NCBI GenBank assembly: GCA_029213195.1
Contig: JARGNI010000033.1
Location: 1 to 61,580 of the forward strand
DNA length: 61,580 nucleotides
Source: Verrucomicrobiales bacterium
GTDB taxonomy: Bacteria > Verrucomicrobiota > Verrucomicrobiia > Verrucomicrobiales > DEV007
Direction of reading: 5' to 3'
In this document: piece by piece, positions 13,101 to 51,514 of the stretch
Position numbering within the stretch: the first letter of the stretch is position 1
How the letters are laid out: each line of letters opens with the position of its first letter
Notes under the pieces: model-generated
Told to the model about the DNA's origin: nothing
The model's database searches: none
The model's input: the letters and a program-made list of their open reading frames with translations, nothing else
Translations under genes and position numbers: made by a program

Positions 13101-16100
13101 CTCGCTCAGCTCGGGTTTGGGATCACGGTAACGTCAAAGCAGGAGGTAGCCCTATCCGGAGAGCCCTTCGATGTTGAGGTGAAGACCGTGGCCGCGGATG
13201 GAACCCCGGTAGGGAAGGACCTGACCCTGTATGTCTTGCGGCGCGAAGTTCCAGAGACCAGCAAGGTTCTCTCTGCAGTGCCCTGGATCAATCGTCCGAG
13301 CGTGGCTTCGGCAGAAGTCACCGTCGAAGAGCATAAGATTGCGACGGATCCTGAGACGGGGACGGGAGTCCAGAAACTTCAGTTGAAGGAGGGCGGTTCC
13401 TATGTCTTGCGTGCCTCGGGTGAGGATCAATTTGAACAAGTCGTGACGGGACAAGGTTCGATGACCGTATCGGACGATGAAGACAGCGTGAAACTTCGGT
13501 TTTTTGCAGATTCCGCAACGGGCCAGGTCGGAGCAATACTTCCTCTTCGCCTCCACTCTCGAATTGATGAAGGGCTTGCTCTCCTCACCTACGAAGGAGA
13601 GGAAATTATCACCCATCGCATCCTGACATTGAAACCTGGATTCAATGCCATGGATGTCGACCTGGATCATCCTCATTTCCCAAATTTCCGAGTAGGCGTG
13701 GTCGCTTTGGATGGAAGAGAGATTCGATCCGCCCACAAGGACATCAAGGTAGAACGGCTTCTAAACATCTCCTTGAAACCAAGGCAGGAGATCTACGCGC
13801 CGGGCGCCGAAGCTTTCATCGAAGTGGAGGTCACGGACCAGAATGGAGAGCCTGTCCAGGCAGCCTTAAGCGTTGCTCTCGTGAACGAAGCTCTCTTTTC
13901 TCTCTACCCGGATCCGGTGTCGCCGATTCGACAGTTCTTCGAAAGTAGCGCCCAGCGCAGGGCGGAGTTTCGTCTCGGTTCCTCTGCTGGGTTTAACTAT
14001 GCCGGCATGACCCGAAAAGTCGTCAAGTCTGTAGCGGAGGAGAAGGAGCGGCTTGAGAGAGACCAAAAAGAACTGCAACAGCTCGCCCAGATGCAGCAGG
14101 GGTTGGGTTATGGCTACGGAGGAGCACAAATGGGGCAGGCTTCCGCTCCAAGCAGCACGGAAGCTCCCCTCGTCCAATCGATCAATGCGCCGATGGAGGA
14201 GGCTGAGGTCTCCAGGGAGTTCGTGCAAAGCAGGGTTCAGTTCAATGAGGAGATGGGTGAAGCGTTGGATGATCAGGCCAAGAATATTGTGCACTTGGGG
14301 GATAAAGAAATGGGTGGCGAAGGCCAAGCCAAACCTCGAGAGGAGAAGATGGAGAGCGGCCGCTGGGTCTCTCCTGTCGTGACTGATGCCAAGGGGAAGG
14401 CTGTCGTTGCGATTCCACTTCCCGAAAGCACGACCAAGTGGACGCTTCTTTCTCGAGGATGTTCCAAAGAGACTCTCGTCGGTCAGGCCACGGCCTCTCT
14501 CGTGACGAGGAAAGACTTCTTCCTGGATTTGAAGACGCCGAACCTCCTCCAGGAAGAAGATCAAATGTCGTTCCTTTCGCAGGTACACAATCTCACCGAT
14601 TTCGAAGGGAAAGTTCCCGTCACCCTGGAAATTGGAGACTTCAAGGATACCAAGACCGTTCTGATCAAGAAGCAGAGCGTGACGGATGTCGTCTTCAAGA
14701 ATTGGAAAGTACCAGCAGTGGAGTCTATCACGATCACGGCGAGAGCGACCGCCGGGGATCTGAGTGACTCGGTTGCCAAGGCTCTTCCGATTCGACCCTG
14801 GGGAATGGAGTTCTCAAGTTCTGCCGGGGGGATTACCAACGGCAGTGCGAGTGCTGTTTTGAAGTTGCCTCCCAAGCAGGAATACACGTGGAAACGGCTC
14901 GACGTCACCCTGAGTCCTTCGATCAAGAGTGCCTTGCTCGATTTCGCTTTGTCCGAACATTCACATTCGACTCTCGAGAATCAACTTCTCGCAGTGGTGT
15001 CGGCTCTCGAATACGGCAGAGCCAATGCGGTGCAGGCCGAAGATCTTCGGCGCCTGCGTGAGCGCGCCGATTCCCTTGTCGCTGCCCTTACATCGACGCA
15101 GGAGGAGGATGGCATCTGGTCGTGCAAGGGGCGACCCCATCTCCTCCACTCGAGTCGTGTTTACTGGGCACTCTCTCGGGCCAGTCAGAGTGGGATCAAA
15201 GTGCATGCCGAAACGCTCAGGAAAGCGGAGACTCGCATAAAAGAGGGGTTTGCCGGTCTCGCGACGAATGACAATGACTCAAAAGCCGTTCTGATCCATG
15301 CCTTCTCGATTACGAAACGAGCGGACTTTGCCCACATGAATCGCATCTATCGGGAACGTGCCAATCTTTCTCCAACGGCATTGGCTTACATGGCGGCTGC
15401 GTTCGCCAATATGGATCGCCCTGAGTTCGCGAGGGACCTCGTCGACTTGCTTGACCAGAAGGCAGAAAGCAAGGAAATCGAAGGTCGACCCACGACCACC
15501 ACCTGGCCTGGAGGATCGCGAAGTTGGTTGCAGGACTCCACCGAGACGACCGCGGTTGCCTTGCTCGCCTATGCCGCGGTCAAGGTCGACTCACCGTTGG
15601 CCGAGCAGGCGGCGAACGCGCTTCTCGCCAACCGGGGATGTTTCCGTTTCTCCTCTCCGAAAGCGTTTGGACCCTCGGTTGCTGCGCTGGCGGCTTTCTA
15701 CGAAAGCAGGGAGGAAGCCGAGACGGACTTTGAGATTGAAGTACTGGTCAACAACGAGGCGATCAAGACGATCAGCAGCGCCGAAGTGGAAGGTGTTGTC
15801 ACTCTCGAGATTCCCTCCAATTTGATTGGGGATGACGATACGATCGTGCGATTCGAAATGAAGGGTCGTGGAAACTATCACTATGCGGCGACCTTGACTG
15901 GGTTTTCCCCTGATTTCAAAAATCCGGAGTCCTGGGGCTCCGGCTTGAGGTTCACGGGAGGTGGCTATTATCATTCCAACTTCACGTATCGCGGAGTTCC
16001 CCTGGAGAGCACCAGTACCTCACCGGTGACAAAAGTGGAAATCGGGCAGCGAATTCGTGCCACCTCCAGCACCTACAACTCATCGAGTGAGCGTGGCGAT

Positions 16101-34095: not shown

Positions 34096-35238
<1,143 letters not shown>

Positions 35239-35255: not shown

Positions 35256-36698
35256 TCAGGGTTGATATTCAGGGTTGGGGGTCATGGGATCGGCCCTCAC
35301 TTCGATTTTCCATTGATGGAGCTGCGTGAGAAGTTTTTTTGCGAGATCCGGTTGGGATGTGGCGAGATTGTTTTTCTCCCCAATATCCGCCGACAGATTG
35401 TAGAGCTCGATTTTTCCCGATTCCAGAAATTCGATCAATTTCCATTTCCCTGATCGGATGATGGAAACAGGAGCGCTCGATGGGTGGCGATTGTAGTGAG
35501 GATAATGCCAGAAGATGGGCGCAGATTTCTCGAAGGCGATTTCTCCCCGTCCGGTGAGAAGAGGGGCGAGGTTTCGTCCATCGGAGGTGTGCAAAGGTGT
35601 CTCGGTCAGCGCCTGGATGGTGGGGTAGAGGTCACAGGAATGAACAGGGACGTCGATTCGAGTTCCGCCTTCCCGCCCGATTCCGGCTCCGGCAATCAAC
35701 AGGGGAACGCGGATTCCTCCCTCGTAGTGAGCCCCTTTGTTGGCGCGCAGCGGGGCATTGTCTGTCGCCCCCGCGAAGCCTCCATTGTCCGAAGTGAAGA
35801 CGATGAGTGTGTTTTCGATCAGCTCAAGTTCCTCAAGTGTCTCCATGATTCTCCCGACACTCTGATCGACGCTTTCGATCATCGCTGCGTAAGCGGGCTT
35901 CCCTTGTCTTTCTAGTTTGGGCAGGGCCTCGTATTTGGCGATCAATTCCTTCTTCCCCTGGAGCGGAGTGTGGACGGCGTAGTAGGGAAAGTAGAGAAAA
36001 AACGGCTGGTTCCGGTCTTGCCGAGAAAGGAGGCGAACGGCTTCCTCTGTGAGGCAATCGGTCAAGAAGTCACCGTCCTGGCCGCCGGTGTAGGCTTGCT
36101 TGGAAATGGAATCCTCGGTCGTGGGCAGTTTCCATTTTCCTCGGAAAGGGTAGAAATAGCTCCCAGGGGCACCATGATCATCACCGCCGATGTTGATATC
36201 GAATCCATGATGTTGTGGCAGGGAGAAGGGGGCTCCGCCCAGGTGCCACTTTCCGATATGCCAGGTCGTGTATCCAGATTCACGGAGAGACTCGGCCAAG
36301 GTGAATTCTTCGAGGGGAAGGGACCGGAGAAACCGTCCTTCTCTCATCTTGTGTTTCTCGGGGCTCCACCTGCCCGCAGGGAGCCACTGAGTCAGGAGAA
36401 GTCGAGCGGGATACTTTCCGGTGAGGATCGCGGCACGGGTCGGAGAACAGACCGCACAGGCCGCATACGCGTTGGTAAAACGTAGGCCGGTCTCCGCGAG
36501 GGCGTCGATATGGGGTGTTTGATAGTAGCGGCTCCCCTGGCAGCTGAGATCACTCCAGCCAAGGTCATCGACGAGAAAAAGAATGACATTGGGGCGGGAA
36601 TGCTCGCGGGAAGGCGAGTCCGCAGCCCGTGTATTCAGGCTCAGGAGAACTCCGAAGCAAGAAATGGCGACAAGGAATGGGTAGAACCCTCGATGCAT
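35256..36698 (-). CDS. Sulfatase (arylsulfatase A-like)
   Basis: A 480-residue secreted S1 sulfatase. Signal peptide to about residue 25; metal residues in [11 protein letters not shown] (Asp44-Asp45); formylglycine signature [11 protein letters not shown] with Cys84; [10 protein letters not shown] and [11 protein letters not shown] motifs present. It is upstream of the sialidase-like gene and separated by 17 bases, so the two form an operon. The pair likely removes sulfate and then the terminal sugar from the same glycan (inference). Distance and sequence difference from the other sulfatases here show these are not recent tandem copies. Confidence 0.93.
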
Positions 36699-38589: not shown

Positions 38590-39783
38590 TCAGGAACTTT
38601 CGAGCGCCTCGTCGCAAAGCTCCCAGCATTTGTGAAGCATGCGGGGGAGGTGATAGGGGCCTTTCCACAGGTTGCCTTTCAGCCGATTCGAAACGCTTCC
38701 GTCACGTCGAAGATAGCCAAACCACTCTCCATGTTCCCTGTCGGGAAAATGTTCGAAACTCCAATCGTGAACTTGCTGGTGCATCGTGGCAAAGCGGTCC
38801 TCTCCCGTTAGATGCCACGCCATCAGGGTCGCAATGATGGTCTCATTATGAGGCCACCAGAATTTCATATCGTGCCAGTATTCTCCGATAGGACGATTGT
38901 CGACCCCGACGAAATAGAGGAGTCCACCGTACTCTCGGTCCCATCCTCGTCTCCACATCCACTGGATCATGCGGCAACCCAGGGAAATGAGGTCGGGATC
39001 GGAATCTCGATACCTGGCCTCTTCGAGAATGAACCAGGACGCCTCGATCGCATGGCCGGGATTCAGTGTTCGGCCATCGAAATGGCTGTCGATGCGGGAA
39101 CCATCGATCGAGACGGTCTCCATGACGCATTCGATATCCTCGTGAACGAAGTCACTGGCGATTTCTTCGATCGCGTTGCTGATGATCTTCGTCCATGGTC
39201 CCTCGATTCCAGCTCGACGACAGACCTGGGCACAATGGATCAGGATCATGGGATTTGCTAGGCTCTTGCTCGGGCGAGTGCCAGTGAACTTGGGTGGAAA
39301 AGGGGAGAGAGCTGGATTCCGAGAGTGATCGAGAAAGGTGTCGAAAAGCCGGGTGGCGTTCGCGCGATACTTCTCCTCGCGGGTTGCTTCGAAATGGGCT
39401 GCATTGGCGATGCAGGCGAAGGCTTCGGAGAACCGATAGCGACGCTTGCGAATCGGTGACCCATCTTCGGCGACCTGAAACCACATCAGCCCATCGACGG
39501 GATCGGTTCCGAACTGCTCGAGGAAATCCAATCCAGATCTTGATGCGGCGATCCATTTTTCGTTCGGACCTACACAGTTGTGGAGGTGCGCTAGGAGCCA
39601 GGCGAACCGTCCTTGGACCCAGATGCTCTTGTCGCTGTCCAGGAGGCTTCCGTCTTGATCGAGCGACGTCGCGTATCCACCGTATCCCTCGTCGAGCCCA
39701 TGCCGCAGCCAGAACGGGAGAACATCCTCGAGCAAAGTGTCGCGATAGGTATCGCGCAGGTGGACGAGCTGATTCTCCGTCAT
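38590..39783 (-). CDS. N-acylglucosamine 2-epimerase (AGE)
   Basis: A 397-residue cytosolic enzyme of the AGE/renin-binding family, an (alpha/alpha)6 barrel interconverting N-acetylmannosamine and N-acetylglucosamine. Family segments are WVQGRFAWLLAHLHN, WFQVAEDGSP, a GHAIEASWFILEEA stretch with the conserved His and Glu, and WWPHNETIIATLMA near 310 with the second catalytic His, followed by FPDREHGEWFGYL. The ATG at 39783 overlaps the stop of nanA by 4 bases (ATGA), so the two are translationally coupled. Converting ManNAc directly to GlcNAc bypasses NanK and NanE. The longer frame to 39924 is rejected because it would overlap nanA. Confidence 0.92.
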   Translation of the reverse strand: MTENQLVHLRDTYRDTLLEDVLPFWLRHGLDEGYGGYATSLDQDGSLLDSDKSIWVQGRFAWLLAHLHNCVGPNEKWIAASRSGLDFLEQFGTDPVDGLMWFQVAEDGSPIRKRRYRFSEAFACIANAAHFEATREEKYRANATRLFDTFLDHSRNPALSPFPPKFTGTRPSKSLANPMILIHCAQVCRRAGIEGPWTKIISNAIEEIASDFVHEDIECVMETVSIDGSRIDSHFDGRTLNPGHAIEASWFILEEARYRDSDPDLISLGCRMIQWMWRRGWDREYGGLLYFVGVDNRPIGEYWHDMKFWWPHNETIIATLMAWHLTGEDRFATMHQQVHDWSFEHFPDREHGEWFGYLRRDGSVSNRLKGNLWKGPYHLPRMLHKCWELCDEALESS

Positions 39784-40712
39784 GGCAGCTGGAAATTGCC
39801 GGTTTTGATTTCCTCCGCAAACCCTGATTCTTCGAGACTTGTTCGGGCTTGCTGGACTTGCTTCTCGGTCAGGGCTGGTTGGGGAAGTCGACAAGGTCCC
39901 GGATCGATATCGAGGAGAGGCCACACGACCTGCTTTACGCAGGCCTGGAAAGGGCCTGGGTCCGAGGCAAGAATCCTGACGAGGCGCGCAGCCTTTCTCA
40001 TCCAGGCCTGCGCCATTTCCAGATTACGCTGTTTGTAGTGAGCAATGATCTGGTTCCAAAGAGGCGCGGCAAACCCATAGCAACTTCCTACGGCGCCCTG
40101 CGCTCCGGTCGCAAGAGCTCCCAGGATCATCTCGTCGGAGCCGAAGAGGATGTCGTAGCGACCGTTGTCAAACTCCTGGCAGGCCATCATCTCGGCAAGG
40201 AAGAAGTCACTGAACTTGATCCCGTTGAAGCTTGGAATTCTTTCTTTCGCGGCTTCAAGCAACTTCACGGTGTCGAAGGAGACTCCGCTGAGTCGGGGAA
40301 TGTGATAGTAATAGTAGGGCAGCTTGGGGGCGGACTCCGCAATCGTGGCAATGGAGTCGATGAGGAGCTCCAGGGTGGGGGGCTTGAAGTAAGTCGGTGG
40401 CAGAGTCGAGATCGCATCGGCTCCACACTCGGCGGCATGGCGGGCAAGTTCACAGGCGGAGGGAATCGAGTTGTGTCCCACCTGGATGACCACGGGGATG
40501 CGACCTCCGGCGGCGCTGACGAAAGCAGAGGCGACTGACTTCCGCTCCTCGATCGAGAGAGATTCTCCCTCTCCCGTGCTTCCACAGACGTAGAAGCCAG
40601 CGACTCCTCGGTCGATCATCGATTCGGTCATTCGAGGGATGAGGTCGAGGTTCACCGATCCGTCCGGTGAGTAGGGAGTGTACGTCGCAGCAACAAGGCC
40701 TTGTAGTTTCAT
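39780..40712 (-). CDS. nanA: N-acetylneuraminate lyase (sialic acid aldolase)
   Basis: A 310-residue class I aldolase of the DHDPS/NAL family that cleaves N-acetylneuraminate into ManNAc and pyruvate through a Schiff base. Lys166 (FNGIKFSDF) is the Schiff-base lysine, Tyr136 in the YYYYHIP motif is the catalytic tyrosine, and GSTGEG (44-49) binds the pyruvate carboxylate. YHIP together with the FKPP segment points to sialic acid lyase rather than dihydrodipicolinate synthase. It heads a leftward operon with the 2-epimerase and is divergent from the GntR regulator, the classic arrangement for sialic acid catabolism. TYFKPP near 107 is normal for the group. It acts in the cytoplasm after uptake by the symporter. 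Confidence 0.9.
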   Translation of the reverse strand: MKLQGLVAATYTPYSPDGSVNLDLIPRMTESMIDRGVAGFYVCGSTGEGESLSIEERKSVASAFVSAAGGRIPVVIQVGHNSIPSACELARHAAECGADAISTLPPTYFKPPTLELLIDSIATIAESAPKLPYYYYHIPRLSGVSFDTVKLLEAAKERIPSFNGIKFSDFFLAEMMACQEFDNGRYDILFGSDEMILGALATGAQGAVGSCYGFAAPLWNQIIAHYKQRNLEMAQAWMRKAARLVRILASDPGPFQACVKQVVWPLLDIDPGPCRLPQPALTEKQVQQARTSLEESGFAEEIKTGNFQLP

Positions 40713-40817: not shown

Positions 40818-40864
40818 CGAGCGAACGTGCAAGGTTTTTGGGAAAAAAATTGGTTCTCGGGTTC

Positions 40865-41554
40865 ATGGCTACACTCAGCGAAAAAGCGTATCAGCATATT
40901 CGAAAGCAGGTCTTCTCAGGTGCCCTTGCCCCGGGGGATCGCCTCGTCAATCGAACCCTCGCGAAGCAACTGGGGACAAGCTTCATTCCGGTTCGGGAAG
41001 CGATCAGTCGGCTTGCCAGCGAAGGAGTGGTCGAGCAGGTGGCGGGAGCAGGTGCTTTTGTAAGAGAGTTTGATCGCCAGGAGATCTCGGAGATCTACGA
41101 TGTGCGGGAGTTGATCGAACCTTTTGCGGCACGGGAAGCGGCACGCTTTCTGACCGATCACGAACTGGCCGAGTTGGAGTCGGTGATGGCGGAGTGGGAG
41201 GCATTGGGCGAGACCATTCTCAATCGAAAGCGTGGAGCTACGGAGTCGGATCTGGATCTCTGGCTGAAGCTTAATGAGCGTTTTCACTCCCTCATGATCG
41301 CGGCTTCGCGAAATCGGATTCTATCGAAGATCACGAATGATGTGAATGTCTTGTCCCAGTGTTTTGCGGCGCATCGCGGATCTCCCAGGTTGCTGTCTTC
41401 AGACACCGTGAAGGCGACGCTGGACTCTCATCGAGAGCTTTTCGAATTGCTGTCGAGTCGCGACTCGGTTGCGGCGGAGGCATTGGTGCGTCAGCAGTTG
41501 GAATACGGAAGAGAGTCCGTCCTCACCTTCTTTGATCAAGGGAGGAGAAAATGA
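40865..41554 (+). CDS. GntR/FadR-family transcriptional regulator of the sialic acid genes (NanR-like)
   Basis: A 229-residue regulator: N-terminal winged helix (about 1-70, with YQHIRKQVFSGALAPGDRL and TSFIPVREAISRLASEG) and a C-terminal all-helical FCD ligand domain (about 80-220), whose acidic and histidine residues (for example in LNERFHSLMI and SHRELFELL) bind metal and effector in the family. Position between nanA-AGE and the sialidase/transporter operon indicates a sialic acid- or intermediate-responsive regulator. Its TGA overlaps the ATG of the next sulfatase gene (41551-41554), so it is the first gene of the rightward operon. ATG 40865 is used; 40838 is a possible longer start. Confidence 0.9.
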   Translation: MATLSEKAYQHIRKQVFSGALAPGDRLVNRTLAKQLGTSFIPVREAISRLASEGVVEQVAGAGAFVREFDRQEISEIYDVRELIEPFAAREAARFLTDHELAELESVMAEWEALGETILNRKRGATESDLDLWLKLNERFHSLMIAASRNRILSKITNDVNVLSQCFAAHRGSPRLLSSDTVKATLDSHRELFELLSSRDSVAAEALVRQQLEYGRESVLTFFDQGRRK

Positions 41555-43089
41555 GGCGTTGGAAAGGCTTTCCTACGGCAGTCCTGTTTGTCGGCGGGGC
41601 GCTTTCCGTCGGCGCTGTGGAACCCATCGATCCGGGTGGGCAATTGAATCGGCCCAATGTCCTTTTTCTCGCTGTCGATGATCTGAAGGACTGGGTCGGT
41701 TGTCTTGGCGGGTATGAAGGCCAAGTTCACACTCCCAATATTGACCGGCTTGCCGCAAAAGGAACCTTATTCACCAACGCGCATTGCCCATCGCCCAAGT
41801 GTGCTCCCTCGAGGGCTGCGATCCTGACGGGATTGATGCCTTCGACGACGGGACTCTATGACAACGGGCATTGGTGGTTTCCGAATGAGCCTGAGGTTAC
41901 CACCATTCCGCTGAATTTTCGAAATCATGGGTATCGAGTTGCTGGAGCAGGGAAGATTTTTCATCATACTGCGGGAAATCATCCCCCCAACCAGTGGGGA
42001 GAGTTTCAGAAGCTCCTGTTCCGTGACGATCCCTGGTTTCGCGGAGCAAAATTGAACTACCCGTGGTCAGAACATGGGCCTTTCCCGTCCGGGTTTCCTT
42101 TCAGCGGGGTAAAAGGGCTGGGGCACGAAAACGATTGGGGAGTTTTGGGGACCCAGGAACCGAAATATGACGACTCTCGGAGCGCGGGGTTTGCGGTAGA
42201 GTTCCTGAAGCAAGAGCAGAGCGAGCCCTTCTTTCTCGCCTGTGGTTTGTTTCGACCTCATTTGCCCTGGTATGTGCCGCAGAAGTATTTCGATCGGTAT
42301 CCACTGAAGGAGATCGTTCTGCCGGGCGTGAAGACGAGTGATCTGGAAGATGTGCCCAAGGCGGGTCGGGCTTTTGCCAACGCGAGGAAGGGAGACTTGG
42401 AGAAGATTCGGAAGGCGGGAAAGTATCGAGAAGCCGTTCGAGCATATCTTGCAAGTGTCACCTACGCAGATGCTCAGTTGGGCCGAGTACTGGATGCTCT
42501 CGAAGTGAGCAAACATGCCGACAACACTGTCGTTGTTCTGTGGTCAGATCATGGATGGCATCTGGGTGAGAAGGGGCATTGGCATAAGTCGACACTGTGG
42601 GAAGAATCGACCCGAGTCCCTTTTATCGTATCGGTGCCAGGATTGAGGCCGGCGAAGTGCAGTCGGCCAGTCAGCCTCATCGATCTTTATCCCACCTTAA
42701 ACGAACTTTGTGGGTTGGGGGAGAATCCTGCTCACGATGGGAGGAGTCTCGTTCCCTTGCTGACCGATCCCAACACGAGCTGGGATCGGCCAGCTATTAT
42801 TCAATACAAGGCCGGGAATGTGGCAGTGCGATCGGAGCGCTATCGATACATTCGCTATCGGGACGGTGGCGAGGAATTCTATGATCTGAAAGCTGACCCC
42901 TATGAATGGAGCAACTTGGCTGATTCATCCAAGCATGCCGCCACCAAAAAGGAACTCGCCAAATGGGCGACCCGTGACTGGGCGGAGCCGGCATCTCTGA
43001 AGTCCGCCTTCGAATTCGATTCCGATACCTTCGTTTGGAAGGAGAAAGCAACTGGTCGTCTCATCGACGGCACAAAAGCTCGCCCCTGA
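41551..43089 (+). CDS. Iduronate-2-sulfatase-like sulfatase
   Basis: A 512-residue secreted S1 sulfatase with the iduronate-2-sulfatase layout: signal peptide (1-22), Asp43-Asp44 in FLAVDDLKDWVG, formylglycine motif CAPSRAAILTG with Cys84, GAGKIFHHTA and GLFRPHLPWYVP segments, then VVLWSDHGWHLGEKGHWHKSTLWE with the metal-site aspartate and histidine. Members of this group act on iduronate or other 2-O- or 3-O-sulfated sugars. In this operon its substrate is more likely a sulfated sugar on a sialoglycan than heparan sulfate, but that is inference. It is coupled to the GntR gene at its 5' end and 9 bases from the next gene. Confidence 0.92.
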   Translation: MRRWKGFPTAVLFVGGALSVGAVEPIDPGGQLNRPNVLFLAVDDLKDWVGCLGGYEGQVHTPNIDRLAAKGTLFTNAHCPSPKCAPSRAAILTGLMPSTTGLYDNGHWWFPNEPEVTTIPLNFRNHGYRVAGAGKIFHHTAGNHPPNQWGEFQKLLFRDDPWFRGAKLNYPWSEHGPFPSGFPFSGVKGLGHENDWGVLGTQEPKYDDSRSAGFAVEFLKQEQSEPFFLACGLFRPHLPWYVPQKYFDRYPLKEIVLPGVKTSDLEDVPKAGRAFANARKGDLEKIRKAGKYREAVRAYLASVTYADAQLGRVLDALEVSKHADNTVVVLWSDHGWHLGEKGHWHKSTLWEESTRVPFIVSVPGLRPAKCSRPVSLIDLYPTLNELCGLGENPAHDGRSLVPLLTDPNTSWDRPAIIQYKAGNVAVRSERYRYIRYRDGGEEFYDLKADPYEWSNLADSSKHAATKKELAKWATRDWAEPASLKSAFEFDSDTFVWKEKATGRLIDGTKARP

Positions 43090-43098
43090 AATCCTGTG

Positions 43099-45309
43099 AT
43101 GAAATCTATTTTCCGTATCATTTTAACCATGGGGATCCTGGGATCTCTGGTTCCAAGCCGTCTTGTCGCGGAGATTCCGACGGTCACCGTTTTCGAAGCC
43201 GGTCAGGACGATTACAAGGTGTTCCGTATCCCGGCGATCGTTGAAGCGGCGAACGGAGACCTGCTTGCCTTTTGCGAAGCACGGCAGGGAGGGGATGCCA
43301 GCGAAATCGATCTGGTTCTGAAGCGGTCGTCTGATCGCGGAGAAACCTGGGGGGCATTGGAGATCGTCCAGGAAAGCGACGACTTTCTTTCCCTGTTCGA
43401 GGAGGACGGTCCAGAAATTACGATTGGGAATCCGGCACCTGTCGTCGATCATCTGGACCCGGATCATCCGGGGCGGTTGTGGCTGCCGTTCACCTTGGAG
43501 AATGACCGGATCTTTGTGGTCTTCAGCGATGACTCTGGAAAATCCTGGTCAGAACGCCGTGAGATCACGAGGGATGTAAAAAAGGAGCCCTGGGGGTGGT
43601 ATGCGACTGGTCCGGTTCACTCGATTCAGATTCAGACGGGGCCGCATCGCGGGCGCCTCGTCATCCCCTGCGATCACCGATTGAGTGAAGATGGGCAGGA
43701 CTCGGGACCAAGTGCAGCCCATGCGATCTTGAGTGATGATCATGGGAAAAGCTGGCGCATCGGTGCTCTGGATCAGACCTACAAGGATGGACTGAATGCC
43801 AATGAAACGACGGTGGTGGAACTGGGGGATGGCACGCTCTACTTCAATACCCGTGATCAGCGTGGGGCAGCCCCCGGCACTCGTGGGGAGGCCTGGAGCA
43901 CGGATGGGGGTGAGACTTTCAAGAGTCGAAGCGAGGACTGGGAGATGTTTCGTCCTTCTCCTGAAGTTCTGGATCCACCGGTGGTGCAGGGGGCGCTTCA
44001 CAGTCCTCATCCCGGCCTTATTCTCTTTTCGGCTCCAGACAGTGATGGGCCTTCCGGGCCAGGACGTAGTGATTTGCGGATTCGGTTTTCCACGGATGAG
44101 GCGGAGACCTGGCAGGATGGGCCGCTGATCCATGTCGGGCCTGCCGCCTACAGCGATATGGTCAGCCTCGATGAGGAAACCGTCGGAGTCCTTTTTGAAG
44201 CCGGGGATGAGGGGCCTTACGATATGATCCGATTTGCTCTGCTGAATCTCGATAAGCTGAGAGGGCAGGGCAGGGCAGTATACAAAGCGGATGGGGGATA
44301 TGGCTATCGCATCCCTTCCCTGGTAACGGCCAAAAATGGTGACTTGTTAGCTTTCTGTGAGCGACGCTTCGGGTTCTCGGATCATGCCAAGAACGACATT
44401 GTTCTGAAGCGGTCTTCGGATGGCGGGAAAACCTGGAGCGATATGCAAATCGTCGATGATGCCGGAGGAGATTCCCTGAACGATCCTTCGGCCATCGTGA
44501 TGGGAAGCGGGGAGATCATCCTGATGTATCAGCGGTTTCCCGAAGGCTATCACACGATCAGCAATCATACCATGACGATGGCGGAGCGTGGCTACGGCGG
44601 GCCAAGGAACACGCGAACCTTGATGCGGCGATCCACGGATCACGGTAAGACATGGTCCGAACCGGTCGATGTCACCCGATCCGTGCGCCGCCCTGAAGCG
44701 GTCAATATTGCCAGTCCGGGAAGAGGGATCGAATTGAAGCAGGGGAAGCATGCCGGCCGATTGTTGTTTCCCGTCTACGAGAATTTTTCGACGATCAGTG
44801 AGCGAATCTGGAATACCTCGGTCATCATCAGCGATGACGAGGGCGAAACCTGGAGAACCGGAGAGATGGTGCCATCGGATGATCTCGGAGGGTATGGGAA
44901 CGAGAATCAGATCGTGGAGAGGAAAGATGGGGCCATTCTCATGAGCTCCCGCAACCAGGCGGGTGCGAAACTTCGCCGATTATCGGTGAGCCATGATGGA
45001 GGCGAAACGTGGGAGCCCTACCGTCTGGCCGAGGATCTTGTGACTCCGCAGTGCATGGGGAGTGTCATTCGAAAGGGCGATCTCTTGGTTCATTCCTTAC
45101 CGAATTCAGAAGGTCGCCGAGATGGGGCCATCCTCGTAAGCCGGAACGGAGGGGATAACTGGGAGCGGGTGCATACGATTACGCCGGCCGGATTTGCCTA
45201 CAGTTCTCTCAGTGTCCTTCCGGATGGGACCGCGCTTTGTCTGTATGAGGCGGCGGGTTACCAATCGATTCGGCTGGCAACGATTCCGGAAGAGGTTTTC
45301 GCCCCATGA
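43099..45309 (+). CDS. Tandem two-domain exo-alpha-sialidase
   Basis: A 736-residue secreted protein made of two complete BNR sialidase domains, about residues 30-390 and 391-736, after a signal peptide. Each domain begins with its own catalytic-arginine motif: FRIPAIV near residue 45 and YRIPSLV near 402. Each has several Asp-boxes (first: SSDRGETWG, SDDSGKSWS, SDDHGKSWR; second: SSDGGKTWS, STDHGKTWS, SDDEGETWR). Both carry a LLAFCEAR/LLAFCERR motif, so both could be active. Single-domain sialidases are the norm; duplication may give two linkage specificities or avidity. It lies between the IDS-like sulfatase (9 bases upstream) and, with a 4-base overlap, the mutarotase-symporter gene. A GTG at 43096 is an alternative start. 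Confidence 0.9.
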   Translation: MKSIFRIILTMGILGSLVPSRLVAEIPTVTVFEAGQDDYKVFRIPAIVEAANGDLLAFCEARQGGDASEIDLVLKRSSDRGETWGALEIVQESDDFLSLFEEDGPEITIGNPAPVVDHLDPDHPGRLWLPFTLENDRIFVVFSDDSGKSWSERREITRDVKKEPWGWYATGPVHSIQIQTGPHRGRLVIPCDHRLSEDGQDSGPSAAHAILSDDHGKSWRIGALDQTYKDGLNANETTVVELGDGTLYFNTRDQRGAAPGTRGEAWSTDGGETFKSRSEDWEMFRPSPEVLDPPVVQGALHSPHPGLILFSAPDSDGPSGPGRSDLRIRFSTDEAETWQDGPLIHVGPAAYSDMVSLDEETVGVLFEAGDEGPYDMIRFALLNLDKLRGQGRAVYKADGGYGYRIPSLVTAKNGDLLAFCERRFGFSDHAKNDIVLKRSSDGGKTWSDMQIVDDAGGDSLNDPSAIVMGSGEIILMYQRFPEGYHTISNHTMTMAERGYGGPRNTRTLMRRSTDHGKTWSEPVDVTRSVRRPEAVNIASPGRGIELKQGKHAGRLLFPVYENFSTISERIWNTSVIISDDEGETWRTGEMVPSDDLGGYGNENQIVERKDGAILMSSRNQAGAKLRRLSVSHDGGETWEPYRLAEDLVTPQCMGSVIRKGDLLVHSLPNSEGRRDGAILVSRNGGDNWERVHTITPAGFAYSSLSVLPDGTALCLYEAAGYQSIRLATIPEEVFAP

Positions 45310-48044
45310 ATCATCCTGTTTCCCTCTTCACCAGGATTCTGATAGGAGTCACCTCTGGACGAATCGATGAGAGCGGGAAACCAAGGGAAGGCCGAGAAAG
45401 AGAACGAGGAAATCGAGAGAAACAAAGCATGATGAAAATGATATGGCGGTTGGTTGTTTGGGGGTGCCTCGCTTGCCTGACCTCGGGAACACTGCGGGCG
45501 GGAGAAGATTCGATCCAATGGAGCGCCCTGCCGGCTCTTCCCGATGATCATGGATTTGCGGGACCTTTTGCCGGGAGGATCGGGGATCAGTACGTCGTCG
45601 CCGGCGGAGCCAATTTTCCCGAGGCTCCGCCCTGGGAGGGAGGAAGCAAAGTCTGGCACGACCGGGTTTTTGTCTATTCGCGAGGTGATACGTCCTGGTC
45701 TCTCGCGGATACGAGATTACCCGAGGCTCTCGCGTATGGTGTCTCCGTCAGCCTGCCTCAGCGAGGATCGATGGTTTTGATCGGGGGCAGCAATCAGGAA
45801 AACGAGCCAACAAGTATCGTTCTCGAAATGCGGCTGGAGGAAGGGGAGCCGGTCTTTCTTTCCCTTCCGTCTCTGCCGATTCCTCTAGCAGAGATGAGCG
45901 GAGTGGTCCTCGAAAACACGATCTATGTTTTCTCGGGGCGAACTCTTGAAGGAACTGCCAGAGCTGCTTATCGGATTGTCCTCGATGCCACGGAACCGGT
46001 CTGGGAGAGCCTTCCCTGGCCGCAAGAGGCACGGGGGCGGATGCACTCCGTCGCCGGCGTGCGCGAGGGCAAGGTCTATCTGTTTGCCGGGCGCGACAGG
46101 ATGTCCGGTGAGCCTCTCCGGTTTCCGGAAGATCGGATGGAACCGGAAAAACTCGATTTTCTCCGCGACGCCTATCGATTTGATCCCGGATCGAATTCCT
46201 GGGATCGGATTGCGGATCTTCCGATTGGCTTGTCCGCGGCGCCTGCGTTGGCGGTGCCCGGGGGAAATTCCCATCTCTTGATGCTCGGAGGCGTCGACGT
46301 AAACTTTCTCAAGGAACAACTGTCTGCGAGGCCGGAGCTGAACGGTCAAGGGCATGAACATCCAGGATTCCCGCGGACTATCTGGGGCTATCACACGATC
46401 ACAAATACCTGGGCGCCACTCGGTGAGTTTCCGAAAGAATTCGAAGCCCCCGTCACGGTTCCGGTGGTTCCCGATGGAGAAAATTCGTTCTGGATTCCCT
46501 CGGGTGAGATCAAGCCGGGGGTTCGGACCATCCAGGTCATGGCGGGTGAGGTCGCGCCGAACCGTTCGTCATTTGGTTTTCTCAACTGGGCGGTCGTTGC
46601 GGGGTATCTCCTTGCGATGGTGGGAGTCGGATACTGGTTCATGAAGCGGGAATCGGCGGCTTCGACCGATGCCTATTTTCGAGGCGGGCAGCGAGTGCCC
46701 TGGTGGGTCGCGGGCCTTTCGATTTTTGCGACAATGCTGTCGGCGATCACTTTCATGGCGATTCCAGCCAAGGCCTACGCCGAGAATTTGAATGCCTGGA
46801 TTGGGCAATGGGCCATCGTCTTCATCGTGCCATTGGTAGTCGTTTTTTACCTTCCCTTTTTTCGGAAGCTCGACATCACTTCCGCCTACGAGTTCCTCGA
46901 GAATCGCTTCAACCTGGCCTCGCGCCTGGTTGCGAGCGGGTTGTTTATGTTGTTTCACATCGGGCGGGTCGCCATCGTGCTCTATCTGCCTGCTCTCGCA
47001 TTGTCGAGCGCGACCGATATCAACATCTACGCCGCGATCCTGGCCATTGGGTTGTTGTGTATTCTCTACACGGTCATGGGAGGAATCGAGGCGGTGGTGT
47101 GGACGGATGCGATTCAGGCGATCGTCCTGCTGGGAGGGGCGCTACTCTGTCTCCTTGTCATCGTTTTCCGCCTGGATGGAGGGGTCGGGACGATGGTGGA
47201 GATCGCCCAGAGCGATGGTAAACTCATTGCCGCGGACTGGACGACTCTCGATTGGAGTTCGACGACGAACTCCGGCATCGTCATATTCCTCGGTTTCCTT
47301 TTCGCCTCTCTTCCTTCCTATACGGCGGGTCAGGATGTCGTGCAGCGCTATGTGACCACCCCGAGTGAGAAAGCAGCGGCCCGTTCGCTCTGGTTGAACC
47401 TGCCCATGGCCTTCTTTGGTTCGTTGCTCTTTTTTCTCCTCGGAACTGCACTCTACGCATTTTACAAGACGCAGCCTGAGTTGCTCGATCCGACGCTGGA
47501 GAGAAACGATGGGATCCTTCCTTTCTTCATCTTGCAGAATCTCCCGGTCGGGTTGGCGGGATTGATCGTTGCCGGAATCTTCGCAGCCGCTCAGTCCACG
47601 ATTTCCAGTTCTTTGAACTCGGTGGCGACTGCGTTTGTGACGGACTTCCATTCCCGAGTCCTGAAACCTGGGGCGAGTGACTCGGCGCGACTCCGAGTCG
47701 CGAGGATAGTAGTGGTCGTGTTAGGAAGTGTTGGGATTTGCCTCGCGGCCTGGATTGCGGCGACCGAGATGAAGTCGGCGTTCGATGCTTTCAATACCTT
47801 CATCGGAATGGCCCTGGGACCCGTTGGGGGGATGTTCTTCCTCGGTGTTTTTGTGGGCCGGGCCTCAGGTTCAACCGCTCTTTTGGGTGCCGTAGCAGGA
47901 TTTCTCGTGGTCGTCGGAATCCACTTTGCTCGAGAAGCAGGTCTCATTGATTTGTGGCCGGTATTGAACGGATTGGTCAGCTTTTTCGTGACCGTGACCG
48001 TAGGAGCGTTCGCGGGGTTGGTTTTTGCAAAGAAAGTAATATGA
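45306..48044 (+). CDS. Kelch sialic-acid mutarotase-like domain fused to sodium:solute symporter
   Basis: A single 912-residue reading frame. Residues about 60-410 are a kelch beta-propeller of the N-acetylneuraminate epimerase (NanM/YjhT) type, with GGSNQENEP, MHSVAGVREGKVYLFAGR and MLGGVD blade motifs; it would equilibrate alpha- and beta-sialic acid outside the inner membrane. From about 418 a sodium:solute symporter domain follows, starting in FLNWAVVAGYLLAMVGVGYWF and containing FRGGQRVPWWVAGLSIFATMLSAITF and the SSS signature around YTAGQDVVQRY and AAAQSTISSSLNSVATAF. Fusion places anomer conversion next to the uptake channel. The N-terminal 41 residues are charged; a signal peptide begins near residue 42 (MMKMIWRLV, nt 45429), which may be the true start. 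Overlaps the flanking genes by 4 bases at both ends. Confidence 0.9.
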   Translation: MNHPVSLFTRILIGVTSGRIDESGKPREGRERERGNREKQSMMKMIWRLVVWGCLACLTSGTLRAGEDSIQWSALPALPDDHGFAGPFAGRIGDQYVVAGGANFPEAPPWEGGSKVWHDRVFVYSRGDTSWSLADTRLPEALAYGVSVSLPQRGSMVLIGGSNQENEPTSIVLEMRLEEGEPVFLSLPSLPIPLAEMSGVVLENTIYVFSGRTLEGTARAAYRIVLDATEPVWESLPWPQEARGRMHSVAGVREGKVYLFAGRDRMSGEPLRFPEDRMEPEKLDFLRDAYRFDPGSNSWDRIADLPIGLSAAPALAVPGGNSHLLMLGGVDVNFLKEQLSARPELNGQGHEHPGFPRTIWGYHTITNTWAPLGEFPKEFEAPVTVPVVPDGENSFWIPSGEIKPGVRTIQVMAGEVAPNRSSFGFLNWAVVAGYLLAMVGVGYWFMKRESAASTDAYFRGGQRVPWWVAGLSIFATMLSAITFMAIPAKAYAENLNAWIGQWAIVFIVPLVVVFYLPFFRKLDITSAYEFLENRFNLASRLVASGLFMLFHIGRVAIVLYLPALALSSATDINIYAAILAIGLLCILYTVMGGIEAVVWTDAIQAIVLLGGALLCLLVIVFRLDGGVGTMVEIAQSDGKLIAADWTTLDWSSTTNSGIVIFLGFLFASLPSYTAGQDVVQRYVTTPSEKAAARSLWLNLPMAFFGSLLFFLLGTALYAFYKTQPELLDPTLERNDGILPFFILQNLPVGLAGLIVAGIFAAAQSTISSSLNSVATAFVTDFHSRVLKPGASDSARLRVARIVVVVLGSVGICLAAWIAATEMKSAFDAFNTFIGMALGPVGGMFFLGVFVGRASGSTALLGAVAGFLVVVGIHFAREAGLIDLWPVLNGLVSFFVTVTVGAFAGLVFAKKVI

Positions 48045-51000
48045 AGACTTTACTGACAACAATTTTGGCTGGGTGCCTCATTCTGGCAAATGCCCAGGCG
48101 GAGAAGCCCAATGTCTTATTTATTGTTTCCGAAGACAATAGTGAGCAGATTGGCTGTTATGGAGAGAGCCGGGTCTATACCCCTCATCTCGATCGATTGG
48201 CAGAGACCGGAGTTCGCTACGATCGAGCCTATGTTCCTTACTCGGTATGCAGCCCGTCTCGTGCCGCCTACCTGACCGGGCTCTACCCTCGCCAGACCGG
48301 TCACATTGGTCTGGCGACGCACCGTTTTGCCTTCTACCAGCCGTTCAAAACGATTCCGGCGTATCTCCGGGAAGCCGGCTACTACACCGGATTTGTCGGG
48401 AAGACTCATGTCAATCCGGCTGGCGTTGTCGAAGACTTTGTAGAGTTCCGTGGAGTGAAACATGCCAATTTCAACAACACCCACAGCATCGTGGACTATG
48501 CCGAGGAAGCTCGAATGATCTTTGAGAATGCCGAGAAAGCAGGGAAGCCCTTTCTCGCGATTTTGAATTACTCGGATGCACACCGCAGATTCATCGAAAC
48601 GTCGAAGGCGGGTTATCCCACGACCCGGGTGAAGGGAGAAACCGCCGAACCGCTTCCCTGGATCGGAGTCGACACGCCAAGGCTGCGTGTTGAAATGAGG
48701 AACTACCTCAGCTGCATGAATCGACTCGACGAGGGGATCGGCATGGTCCTGGCCGAGCTGGAGAAGAGAGGACTGCAGGAGAACACCTTGATCATCTACC
48801 TTGCCGATCATGGGGCCGATTTTCCTCGCGGCAAGACGACATGCTATGAGGGAGGAGTAAAGGTTCCCATGATCGTGAGCTACCCGAAAAGTTTTTCGCA
48901 GAGCAAGGCAGAGTCTGCCTTGGTCTCGACTCTCGATATCCTGCCCACGATCTTGCGGGAGGCGGGAATCGAGATTCCCAGGGAGTTGATGGGAACCCCG
49001 CTTCAGTCGCTCGAAGAGGGCGACGGGCCGCAGCGGGAATACCTTCATACGTTCAATACGGGATCTTTTGCCAACGCCCTCTTTCTTAGTTTTGGAATCT
49101 GCGATGATCGATACAAGCTGATCTACAACCCGGTCCGGGCGAAGAATCTCGCCGGAATCTCACGTTACGAAAATAGTGAGGTCCCCAGGGAACTCTGGGA
49201 TTCCGACTACATCAACCCTCCCGAATTTGAGGTTTATGATCTGGAAAATGATCCTGACGAATTCATAAACCTCGCCAGCGATCCTGCGTACACCGAGATC
49301 CAAGAGCGACTGTTTTCTGCAATGCGTGACTTCCAGAAGACGATTGGGGATCCATTCCTGGATGAGGAGAATATCGATTTCTATGTGGAAGAGATGCAGG
49401 ATCGATCCCGTCACCCGAGGAAGAAAAGTAAGGAAACCTGGGAGCACCTCGAAAAGTTTTGGGGAAACCGGTCCGCCTCGGCAGCTCTATCGAGCGGGTC
49501 GAGGGTCGAAGAAAAGAAGGTTTCCCCGGAATCCTCTCCAGGCCACTCGGTCGGCTTCAAGGCGGGTGGCAATCTCACCAGCTTTGAAGAGGCTGCCGCC
49601 GGAGGATTTGAGGAGCTTGAGCTCGAAGCCATGCAGCTTTTCGCAGAACTGGGGCACGCGGAAATCGATGCGACACATGCGTTTCGAGGTAAGCAGTGCC
49701 TGCGATTGCTGGGGGGGGAAGATCGAAGCGTGGTGATCCATCTTCAAGACACAGTCGCGAAGAACTCGGTCCTCGGATTTCAGGCAGAGCGATGGACTCG
49801 TCGAGATCCCTTTCGGTTCGAAATTCTTGCGAGAGAGAGGGAGGAAGACGAGTGGCAACCTCTCTATGATGGAAGCAAGGAGGTGAAAGTAGGAAGGGCG
49901 TTCCTATCTGCGGTGAGAGTGAGTGCTCCTTTTTCGATTGGTCAGTTGAAGTTCATCTCCTCGACGCCCGAGGGAAGTGGCGTGTTGATTGACGACTTGC
50001 AGGTGCTCGATCCCAAGCCCATGCGAATCACGGGGAGGACCCTCCTGCAGCGACGTCACCCGGTTCTGATCGGGAAGGAAGAAAATGCGGTTCTCGGAAT
50101 CCGTTTGGAGGTGGAAGGAACACTGGGGCCGGCCCCGGTCGTGAGCGAGTTGATTCTGAGTTCCGAGGGAACCGATAACCTGCAGAATATTGACAGTGCG
50201 CAGGTCTTCTATGCCGGTAGTGAGCTGACAGTCCAGGGGGCTCTTTCCTTCGGCGACCGGGTGGCTCCACAAGACCAATGGAAAGTGAAGGGAGAACAAG
50301 CGCTTTCGCCGGGTGAGAACTATTTCTGGATCAGTTATCGGCTGAAGCCTTCTGCGAGTCTGGATGATGAAGTGGATGCAGGATGTCTCTCCTTAACGAT
50401 CGATGGAGTCGAACATGACTTCGCATTGGTTTCTCCAGATGGAGGGAAGCGTATCGGATATGCCTTGCGCCAATTGGGACAGGATGGAGTGCACTCAACC
50501 AGAATTCCGGGCCTGGTGACAACGAACTCCGGGACCCTGCTTGCGGTCTACGATAATCGAAATCGGGCCGGGGGAGATCTGCCCGGTGATATTGATGTTG
50601 GCTTGAGTCGCAGCATGGATGGTGGCCAGACCTGGAGCCCGATGCGGGTGATCATGGATATGGGAGATGATCCGAAATGGAATTACGAAGGGGTCGGCGA
50701 TCCTGCCATCCTTGTGGACCGGGTTACAGGAACGATCTGGGTGGCGGCGATCTGGAGTCACGGGAACCGCGGGTGGCATGGTTCAGGTCCGGGAATGGAG
50801 CCGGAGGAAACCGGGCAGCTCATGCTCGCAAGAAGTGATGATGATGGATCGACCTGGTCGGATCCTATCAATATCACCAAGCAGGTGAAGGATCCGAAAT
50901 GGCGATTCGTTTTACAGGGGCCGGGTAATGGGATCACGATGAGCGATGGAACCCTGGTTTTTCCCGCCCAGTTTCGCGGAGAGAATAGAGAACCTGTCAA

Positions 51001-51514
51001 TGGGAAGCCATTTTCCACGCTCATTTATTCCAAGGATCGTGGGAAGACCTGGAAGATTGGGACGGGAGTAAAGATCGATACGACGGAGGCTCAGTTGGTT
51101 GAATTGGGGGATGGATCGATCATGATCAACTGCCGCGACAATCGGGGAGGAAGTCGTTCTGTTCACACGACGACCGATCTGGGGAAAACCTGGAAGGAGC
51201 ACCCGACCTCGAGGAGCGCGTTACCGGAACCGGTCTGTATGGCGAGCCTCATCCGGGCTGAGACGAAAGCGTATGGGCCGCTCTTGTTTTTTTCGAATCC
51301 TCCCCAGGCAAACGGGCGACGAAACATGACCATAAAGGTCAGTGATGACGAAGGTCTCACCTGGCCCGAGAAGTGGCATACCCTCGTCGATGAGCGGTTC
51401 ACCGCCTACTCCTGCATGACTCCTGTTGGAGAAAATCATATCGGACTCGTCTACGAGGCCCCGGGAGAATTGTATTTTGTATGCTACTCGATTGAGGAGC
51501 TTCTCCGAAAGTGA
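48041..51514 (+). CDS. Sulfatase-sialidase fusion enzyme
   Basis: A 1157-residue secreted protein, start set by the ATGA overlap with the symporter gene. Signal peptide 1-20; S1 sulfatase at about 22-465 with Asp31-Asp33 region (VSEDNSEQIG), formylglycine motif CSPSRAAYLTG (Cys70), GKTHVNPAG and YLADHGADFPRG. Residues about 510-660 are a beta-sandwich, and about 665-795 resemble the N-terminal domain associated with BNR sialidases (VSELILSSEGTDNLQNIDS). The C-terminal exo-alpha-sialidase (about 800-1157) has STRIPGLV with the catalytic arginine and Asp-boxes SMDGGQTWS, SDDDGSTWS, SKDRGKTWK, TTDLGKTWK and SDDEGLTWP. Both active sites look complete. It is the last gene of the operon, which ends here. 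One polypeptide could desulfate and then release, or release desulfated, sialic acid. Confidence 0.93.
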   Translation: MKTLLTTILAGCLILANAQAEKPNVLFIVSEDNSEQIGCYGESRVYTPHLDRLAETGVRYDRAYVPYSVCSPSRAAYLTGLYPRQTGHIGLATHRFAFYQPFKTIPAYLREAGYYTGFVGKTHVNPAGVVEDFVEFRGVKHANFNNTHSIVDYAEEARMIFENAEKAGKPFLAILNYSDAHRRFIETSKAGYPTTRVKGETAEPLPWIGVDTPRLRVEMRNYLSCMNRLDEGIGMVLAELEKRGLQENTLIIYLADHGADFPRGKTTCYEGGVKVPMIVSYPKSFSQSKAESALVSTLDILPTILREAGIEIPRELMGTPLQSLEEGDGPQREYLHTFNTGSFANALFLSFGICDDRYKLIYNPVRAKNLAGISRYENSEVPRELWDSDYINPPEFEVYDLENDPDEFINLASDPAYTEIQERLFSAMRDFQKTIGDPFLDEENIDFYVEEMQDRSRHPRKKSKETWEHLEKFWGNRSASAALSSGSRVEEKKVSPESSPGHSVGFKAGGNLTSFEEAAAGGFEELELEAMQLFAELGHAEIDATHAFRGKQCLRLLGGEDRSVVIHLQDTVAKNSVLGFQAERWTRRDPFRFEILAREREEDEWQPLYDGSKEVKVGRAFLSAVRVSAPFSIGQLKFISSTPEGSGVLIDDLQVLDPKPMRITGRTLLQRRHPVLIGKEENAVLGIRLEVEGTLGPAPVVSELILSSEGTDNLQNIDSAQVFYAGSELTVQGALSFGDRVAPQDQWKVKGEQALSPGENYFWISYRLKPSASLDDEVDAGCLSLTIDGVEHDFALVSPDGGKRIGYALRQLGQDGVHSTRIPGLVTTNSGTLLAVYDNRNRAGGDLPGDIDVGLSRSMDGGQTWSPMRVIMDMGDDPKWNYEGVGDPAILVDRVTGTIWVAAIWSHGNRGWHGSGPGMEPEETGQLMLARSDDDGSTWSDPINITKQVKDPKWRFVLQGPGNGITMSDGTLVFPAQFRGENREPVNGKPFSTLIYSKDRGKTWKIGTGVKIDTTEAQLVELGDGSIMINCRDNRGGSRSVHTTTDLGKTWKEHPTSRSALPEPVCMASLIRAETKAYGPLLFFSNPPQANGRRNMTIKVSDDEGLTWPEKWHTLVDERFTAYSCMTPVGENHIGLVYEAPGELYFVCYSIEELLRK

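Follow-up and report, generated by a model that had tools for sequence, protein, structure and literature searches.

A sulfatase and a sialidase in one chain

The stretch of DNA analysed here, which we call the window, is contig JARGNI010000033.1 (61,580 nucleotides) of the Verrucomicrobiales assembly GCA_029213195.1, and our subject is a fused sulfatase-sialidase gene at positions 48041..51514 of its forward strand. The gene is a single uninterrupted frame of 1157 amino acids that carries both enzymes in the same chain, in the order signal peptide, S1-type sulfatase, disordered linker, MID, BNR_assoc_N and GH33-type sialidase. A preliminary description of the locus had claimed a sulfatase and a sialidase in one frame with one signal peptide, together with C70 in a CSPSR motif, a STRIPGLV motif and five Asp-boxes; the length of the frame, the Pfam matches and the hydropathy profile agree with the first of these claims, and all of the motifs are present in the translation.

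The putative signal peptide comprises residues 1-20 (48041..48100, with the boundary set by eye). This single signal-peptide-like stretch has a hydropathy of 2.5 over 12 residues, and the structural model places a helix at residues 2-16. The S1 sulfatase catalytic domain covers residues 23-310 (48107..48970; PF00884, E value 2.1e-47), includes the predicted formylglycine site, C70, encoded at 48248-48250, and runs into an SGSH_C region at residues 265-362 (48833..49126; PF16347, 6.5e-20). A disordered stretch and linker of about 60 residues (447-509; 49379..49567), mostly with a predicted local distance difference test score (pLDDT) below 50, leads to MID at residues ~510-660 (49568..50020), an all-beta domain that is conserved but matches nothing in Pfam. 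Then come the BNR_assoc_N domain, also abbreviated BNRN, at residues 670-789 (50048..50407; PF14873, 1.5e-17), and the sialidase propeller at residues 804-1157 (50450..51511), in which residues 831-1119 match BNR_2 (2.4e-30). In phmmer searches against the PDB, the sialidase part reached an E value of 3.2e-125 and the sulfatase part 9e-48, both far beyond chance.

An AlphaFold2 (AF2) model of the full chain has a mean pLDDT of 81.4 and a predicted template modelling score (pTM) of 0.59, so we read the relative placement of the two halves as not defined. MID is confident and all-beta within the full model, and its mean pLDDT was 50 when it was predicted alone without an alignment. Structure matches of the sialidase half span mostly residues 664-1157, that is, mostly beyond MID. 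We also observed that MID precedes BNR_assoc_N in many related sialidases, and it belongs to the sialidase half.

Both halves look catalytically complete and active, as judged from their residues. Across 59 aligned sialidase domains, R821, D846, E1016, R1032, R1093 and Y1123 are conserved at a level of at least 0.97; we take R821, R1032 and R1093 to be the arginine triad of GH33 enzymes, Y1123 and E1016 the nucleophile pair, and D846 the acid/base. With these residues, the RIP motif (STRIPGLV begins at residue 819, with RIPGL at 821-825), Asp-boxes at 858, 932, 997, 1044 and 1101, and a propeller fold, this half has the features expected of a GH33 exo-sialidase. For the sulfatase half, E31, D32, C70, R74, K121, H123, H181, D256, H257 and K265 are invariant in all 18 sulfatases of its lineage; E31, D32, D256 and H257 are presumably metal ligands, and K121, H123, H181 and K265 the catalytic lysines and histidines. 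The first metal ligand is glutamate in this lineage, in contrast to aspartate in six outgroup sequences. Five more positions, N143, F144, Y153, A180 and L215, distinguish the lineage from six paralogues. PF00884, the C-x-P-S-R motif (C70-SPSR) and the metal-ligand and Lys/His positions mark a formylglycine-dependent S1 sulfatase, for which 14 matches to the FGE-sulfatase family in this genome are candidate maturation enzymes. No SASA match was found in the protein by Pfam and domain searches, so an acetylesterase of the SiaBb1 type is not part of it.

The surrounding genes

The fused gene ends a forward-strand run (40838-51514) of five genes, with a 4-base overlap at three of the four junctions. 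Immediately upstream, and overlapping its start by 4 bases, lies a NanM-like epimerase fused to an SSF symporter (45306..48044), preceded by a protein with two BNR/sialidase-like domains (43096..45309), a second sulfatase, SULF2 (41551..43089), whose closest solved structures are 6hhm arylsulfatase, choline sulfatase and iduronate-2-sulfatase, and a GntR/FCD regulator (40838..41554). Alongside, on the reverse strand, are a NanA-like lyase of the DHDPS family (39780..40712), an N-acylglucosamine 2-epimerase (AGE; 38590..39924), a C39-like protein, a third sulfatase, SULF3 (35256..36698), and a BNR_2 sialidase-like protein (34096..35238). From this gene content, we read the locus as one for sialic acid (nan) uptake and catabolism.

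The three sulfatases, counting that of the fused gene as SULF1, all have close relatives in other nan/sialidase loci; those of SULF3 lie in L125-L127 and L161-L163 (locus numbers are ours). The pairing of NanM with SSF also recurs, in L036, L057, L059, L060, L062, L079, L083, L125-L128 and L164. Elsewhere in the window, positions 10122-18140 hold an open frame of 2672 amino acids.

Whether the join is genuine

The join might be an artefact of sequencing or assembly that merged two neighbouring genes. In a related locus, L031, the sulfatase and sialidase parts are indeed separate, adjacent and overlapping genes, each with a signal-peptide-like start, which agrees with the earlier proposal that a complete sialidase with its own BNR-associated N-terminal domain was joined to a sulfatase. 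It also lends the artefact some credence, as do the origin of the window in a draft assembly (5.9 Mb in 115 contigs) and the fact that the exact domain order was seen in no other genome. Nevertheless, the linker argues against a single error. There is no stop codon in the fused frame between 49400 and 50440, where the preliminary description had envisaged that resequencing could reveal one, and no second signal peptide was found in any of the three frames of 49440-49700, where the best 12-residue hydropathy is at most 0.8, whereas the L031 sialidase, encoded by a gene of its own, has a signal peptide that reaches 2.4. Because the linker lacks a hydrophobic segment in every frame, one missed stop or frameshift would leave the sialidase without an export signal. 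On the strength of the three-frame check and the comparison with L031, we rejected such an event as the origin of the join; like fusions, moreover, occur in other assemblies. An artefact thus seems very improbable, and we take the fusion as real.

We also asked whether the linker preserves, in another frame, part of the N-terminus of an L031-type sialidase. There is a short resemblance, but aligning the DNA over the junction gave many gaps and no clear homology, and the candidate was rejected.

Recurrent fusions among sialidase relatives

A search with the sialidase domain led to 55 named loci, of which L084 gave no sialidase frame; by record title, the remaining 54 comprise 39 from Verrucomicrobia/Planctomycetes (PVC) and 15 from Bacteroidales. 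The architecture search that the preliminary description had proposed, for a sulfatase and a sialidase in one polypeptide, was thereby answered: a sulfatase lies in the sialidase frame in 18 of the 39 PVC loci, a SASA esterase in 19 and both in 17; if sulfatases anywhere in the DNA fetched are counted, in frame or not, 22 loci have one. Neither partner is in the sialidase frame in any of the 15 Bacteroidales loci. Within the stretches fetched, 14 PVC loci of the 39 showed genes for nan functions (lyase, NanM, AGE or SSF). The sialidase frame is truncated at a contig end in five of the 39 (L034, L063, L075, L078 and L081).

Two orders predominate among the fused relatives: sulfatase-SASA-(MID-BNRN)-sialidase in L030, L032, L033, L035 and L037-L040, and sulfatase-(MID-BNRN)-sialidase-SASA in L054, L057, L059, L060, L062, L079 and L083, where MID or BNRN was sometimes missed by the single-sequence search. 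L054 (1386-5552) has a sulfatase part split by one in-frame stop and a SASA match of just 27 bits. Other arrangements exist. For instance, L056 (5458-11928) encodes a 2156-amino-acid chain with a signal-peptide-like start and the order sulfatase-sialidase-SASA-sulfatase, followed by a gene for a DHDPS-family lyase, and a second protein of L039 joins the window's sulfatase type to a different sialidase. In L048 (6130-10158) and L049 (5479-9387), both from other Verrucomicrobia, this sialidase type has a GH20 hexosaminidase as its fusion partner instead, and the order of the two domains is reversed between the loci. The SASA part of L030 has seven solved matches, the best being carbohydrate esterase FI8 (9h4u), and the remaining six are named sialic acid or sialate acetylesterases. 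In L030 (10194-10970) and L033 (10078-10854), we also observed a gene for a PhyH-family dioxygenase directly after the sulfatase-SASA-sialidase gene.

Thus, the rarity implied by the preliminary description did not hold, since chains of sulfatase and sialidase recur in two phyla and the window's own genome fuses sulfatases to other glycosidases as well, as described below. Of 387 genomes sampled evenly across the phylum, 29 have the sialidase type (E value at most 1e-80), the window's own among them, and stand-alone sialidase frames of about 690 amino acids are common in this set.

These comparisons suggest a likely origin for the fused gene. In the sialidase tree, the window's enzyme nests with those of L030 and L031 among sulfatase-SASA-sialidase proteins, and in L030, a SULF1 gene lies directly upstream of the sulfatase-SASA-sialidase gene. 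Because both the gene order of L030 and the tree fit a deletion, we infer that an L030-like order likely lost its iduronate-sulfatase-like sulfatase and its SASA part, so that the sulfatase gene upstream would have become continuous with the sialidase half. The linker aligns to L030 only from residue 508 onward and holds no clear trace of a deletion.

The sulfatase lineage and its habit of fusing

When loci were fetched through the sulfatase half, 10 of the 12 from the SULF1 lineage had sialidase or nan genes within 10 kb, compared with none of 14 from a nested branch of the same tree. Fisher's test gives p = 1.2e-5 for this difference, a value that ignores shared ancestry and serves as a guide only. 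The context of L131, L132 and L170 is only partly seen, as they lie on short contigs (4.9-6.8 kb), and the 12-locus set leaves out three matches of similar strength (G006:C52, G023:C30 and G010:C75, with E values of 1e-80 to 1e-82). A SULF1 match at an E value of at most 1e-70 is present in 13 of the 387 genomes of the phylum, again including the window's own, and no relatives of the sulfatase half on viral contigs were confirmed. In other genomes, five nan/sialidase loci (L125-L127, L162 and L164) bring together at least four sulfatase genes each. In the nan loci of one genus, we also noted a double sulfatase that pairs the SULF1 type with a type we call SULF2x (L125, 9457-12432; L126, 9871-12810; L127, 9880-12771) and that adjoins further sulfatase genes.

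The window's genome itself is rich in long sulfatase proteins. Among the 150 matches listed (150 of 275 candidates were scored), at least 13 distinct frames with a sulfatase reach 900 amino acids or more, some of them read in part where the fetched stretch cuts the frame. Of the 12 other than the fused gene, four carry GH2, GH32, GH43 or GH127, four carry a second sulfatase, and the rest carry a 3-keto-disaccharide hydrolase, DUF7133 or FG-GAP domains, or nothing named (L174). Given this habit of joining sulfatases to glycosidases, fusion alone is weak evidence for a substrate. The same genome holds a second sulfatase-BNR_2 fusion of 836 amino acids, with another BNR type, in L133 (12200-14707, C90).

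Proposed function

We consider it somewhat probable that the fused gene encodes a secreted bifunctional enzyme that desulfates the end of a sialoglycan, most probably the sialic acid itself, before the tethered sialidase cuts. C70 would be converted to formylglycine, the sulfatase pocket would take the non-reducing end of the glycan and remove a sulfate from it, and the sialidase would then free the bare sialic acid, which, judging from the neighbouring genes, could be taken up through NanM and the SSF symporter and pass to the NanA-like lyase and AGE. Sialic acid is our favoured target for the sulfatase because SASA esterases accompany such sulfatases, because the locus is one of nan genes, and because an exo pocket has been described for S1_8-like enzymes (PMC12549532). 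The preliminary description had reasoned that such coupling makes sense since sulfate on sialic acid blocks many sialidases. The recurrent fusions, the SASA part in 17 of 18 of them and the nan genes around the window's fused gene favour coupling indirectly, but the blocking of sialidases by sulfate was not found in the portions of the literature available.

Several points weigh against sialic acid as the target. The sialic acid counterpart of galactose position 2 bears no hydroxyl, and the neighbouring sugar could be the one that carries the sulfate. The nearest solved relative of the sulfatase is assigned as a galactose-2-sulfate enzyme, and S1_8 enzymes attack position 2 of hexoses (PMC12549532). 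From the genomic side, 21 of the 39 PVC sialidase relatives have no sulfatase in frame, nor do any of six further loci of the phylum that were examined (L086-L091); nan genes were detected around just 10 of the 18 fused relatives; the exact order SULF1-MID-BNRN-sialidase was observed in the window's genome only; L131 (a 6.8-kb contig) and L160 showed no nan context, nor did the whole nested branch; and sulfatases are also fused to GH2, GH32, GH43 and GH127 in the window's genome. If the two activities worked in the opposite order, the sialidase would first expose the underlying glycan and the sulfatase would then act on, for example, a sulfated galactose or N-acetylhexosamine. The characterised mucin sulfatases of the gut do act on 3S-Gal or 6S-GlcNAc (PMC10017367), the nearest sulfatases of solved structure have hexose-2-sulfate or GlcNS as substrates, and GH20, the partner of the related sialidases in L048 and L049, acts on underlying sugars. 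Nevertheless, 17 of the 18 fused relatives have as their third partner SASA, an esterase rather than a glycosidase, and ten neighbours examined singly hold no glycosidase beyond BNR proteins, which makes this order of events rather unlikely in our judgement. The wider scan of 73 neighbours gives the 25 commonest of 105 families, so that some single neighbours may yet encode glycosidases.

A less probable alternative still is that the fusion serves joint export or supply only, with each domain attacking a different, unrelated end of a sulfated polymer of mixed composition. The promiscuity of sulfatase fusion, of which the long frames with varied partners in the window's genome are an example, speaks for such an arrangement, but the same set of enzymes recurs in different orders across two phyla, and the SULF1 lineage, its nested branch aside, tracks sialidase/nan loci. 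Desulfation of sialic acid ahead of its release is thus a plausible reading that the comparison strengthens. More broadly, and more tentatively, the SULF1 lineage and the two sulfatase types that travel with it might be dedicated microbial sialate O-sulfatases, and bacteria of two phyla may have combined them time and again with sialate O-acetylesterases and sialidases in single chains, which would clear a sialic acid of all its decorations ahead of release.

Sulfated sialic acid has been reported to be ubiquitous in vertebrates, two sulfotransferases that produce it, Wscd1 and Wscd2, are known, and the substrate 4MU-Neu5Ac8S has been made (PMC9304399). According to a 2023 review, reports of a microbial sulfatase that acts on sulfated sialic acid were lacking (PMC10017367). 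Among the papers listed, judged by titles and the openings of abstracts and with subscription journals mostly uncovered, we found neither a sulfatase-sialidase fusion nor a sialic acid sulfatase in the literature; no such fusion is described in the available portions of PMC13174399, PMC11929135, PMC10154612 and PMC5066984, and the word "sulfatase" does not occur in PMC10570557, on sialic acid catabolism. The fusions in their varied orders, and the defined sulfatase lineage, thus name candidates for the missing microbial desulfation of sialic acid, which can be tested with 4MU-Neu5Ac8S.

Comparison with known systems

Taken separately, both halves resemble solved enzymes. Sialidase26 (6myv/6mrv), BTSA (4bbw) and Tannerella forsythia NanH (7qxo) align with the sialidase half, N-terminal domain and propeller together, over 479-482 residues at 42-45% identity and Z scores of about 50; for 6mrv against the AF2 model, Z is 50.8 and the root-mean-square deviation 2.5 over 482 residues. 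In contrast to the window's protein, the solved GH33 chains are 514-553 residues long and have neither a sulfatase nor MID. The sulfatase half is nearest by sequence to S1_8A (9bb9) and by fold to the sulfamidase SGSH (4mhx) and S1_8A (9bb9/9bes), and its identity to the lambda-carrageenan S1_8A and to human SGSH is about 26%; the substrates of these two are galactose-2-sulfate (PMC12549532) and N-sulfoglucosamine, respectively.

Taken together, the halves recall three known fusions. The name of the 6hr5 alpha-L-rhamnosidase/sulfatase (GH78), by which alone it was compared, joins a sulfatase to a glycoside hydrolase, with another substrate and another glycosidase family. In SiaBb1 of Bifidobacterium bifidum, as in the proposed function of the window's protein, one chain first strips sialic acid of a decoration and afterwards cleaves off the sugar itself (PMC10017367), but the partner there is an O-acetylesterase instead of a sulfatase, and the fusion is a separate one in another phylum. 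SiaBb3 of the same species likewise fuses a sialidase to an enzyme of a linked step, GH123, although this partner is a glycosidase that acts after the sialidase (PMC12856340). Fusions of sulfatases with glycosidases, and of decoration removers with sialidases, are therefore kinds already known, and the gene described here is a variation on them.

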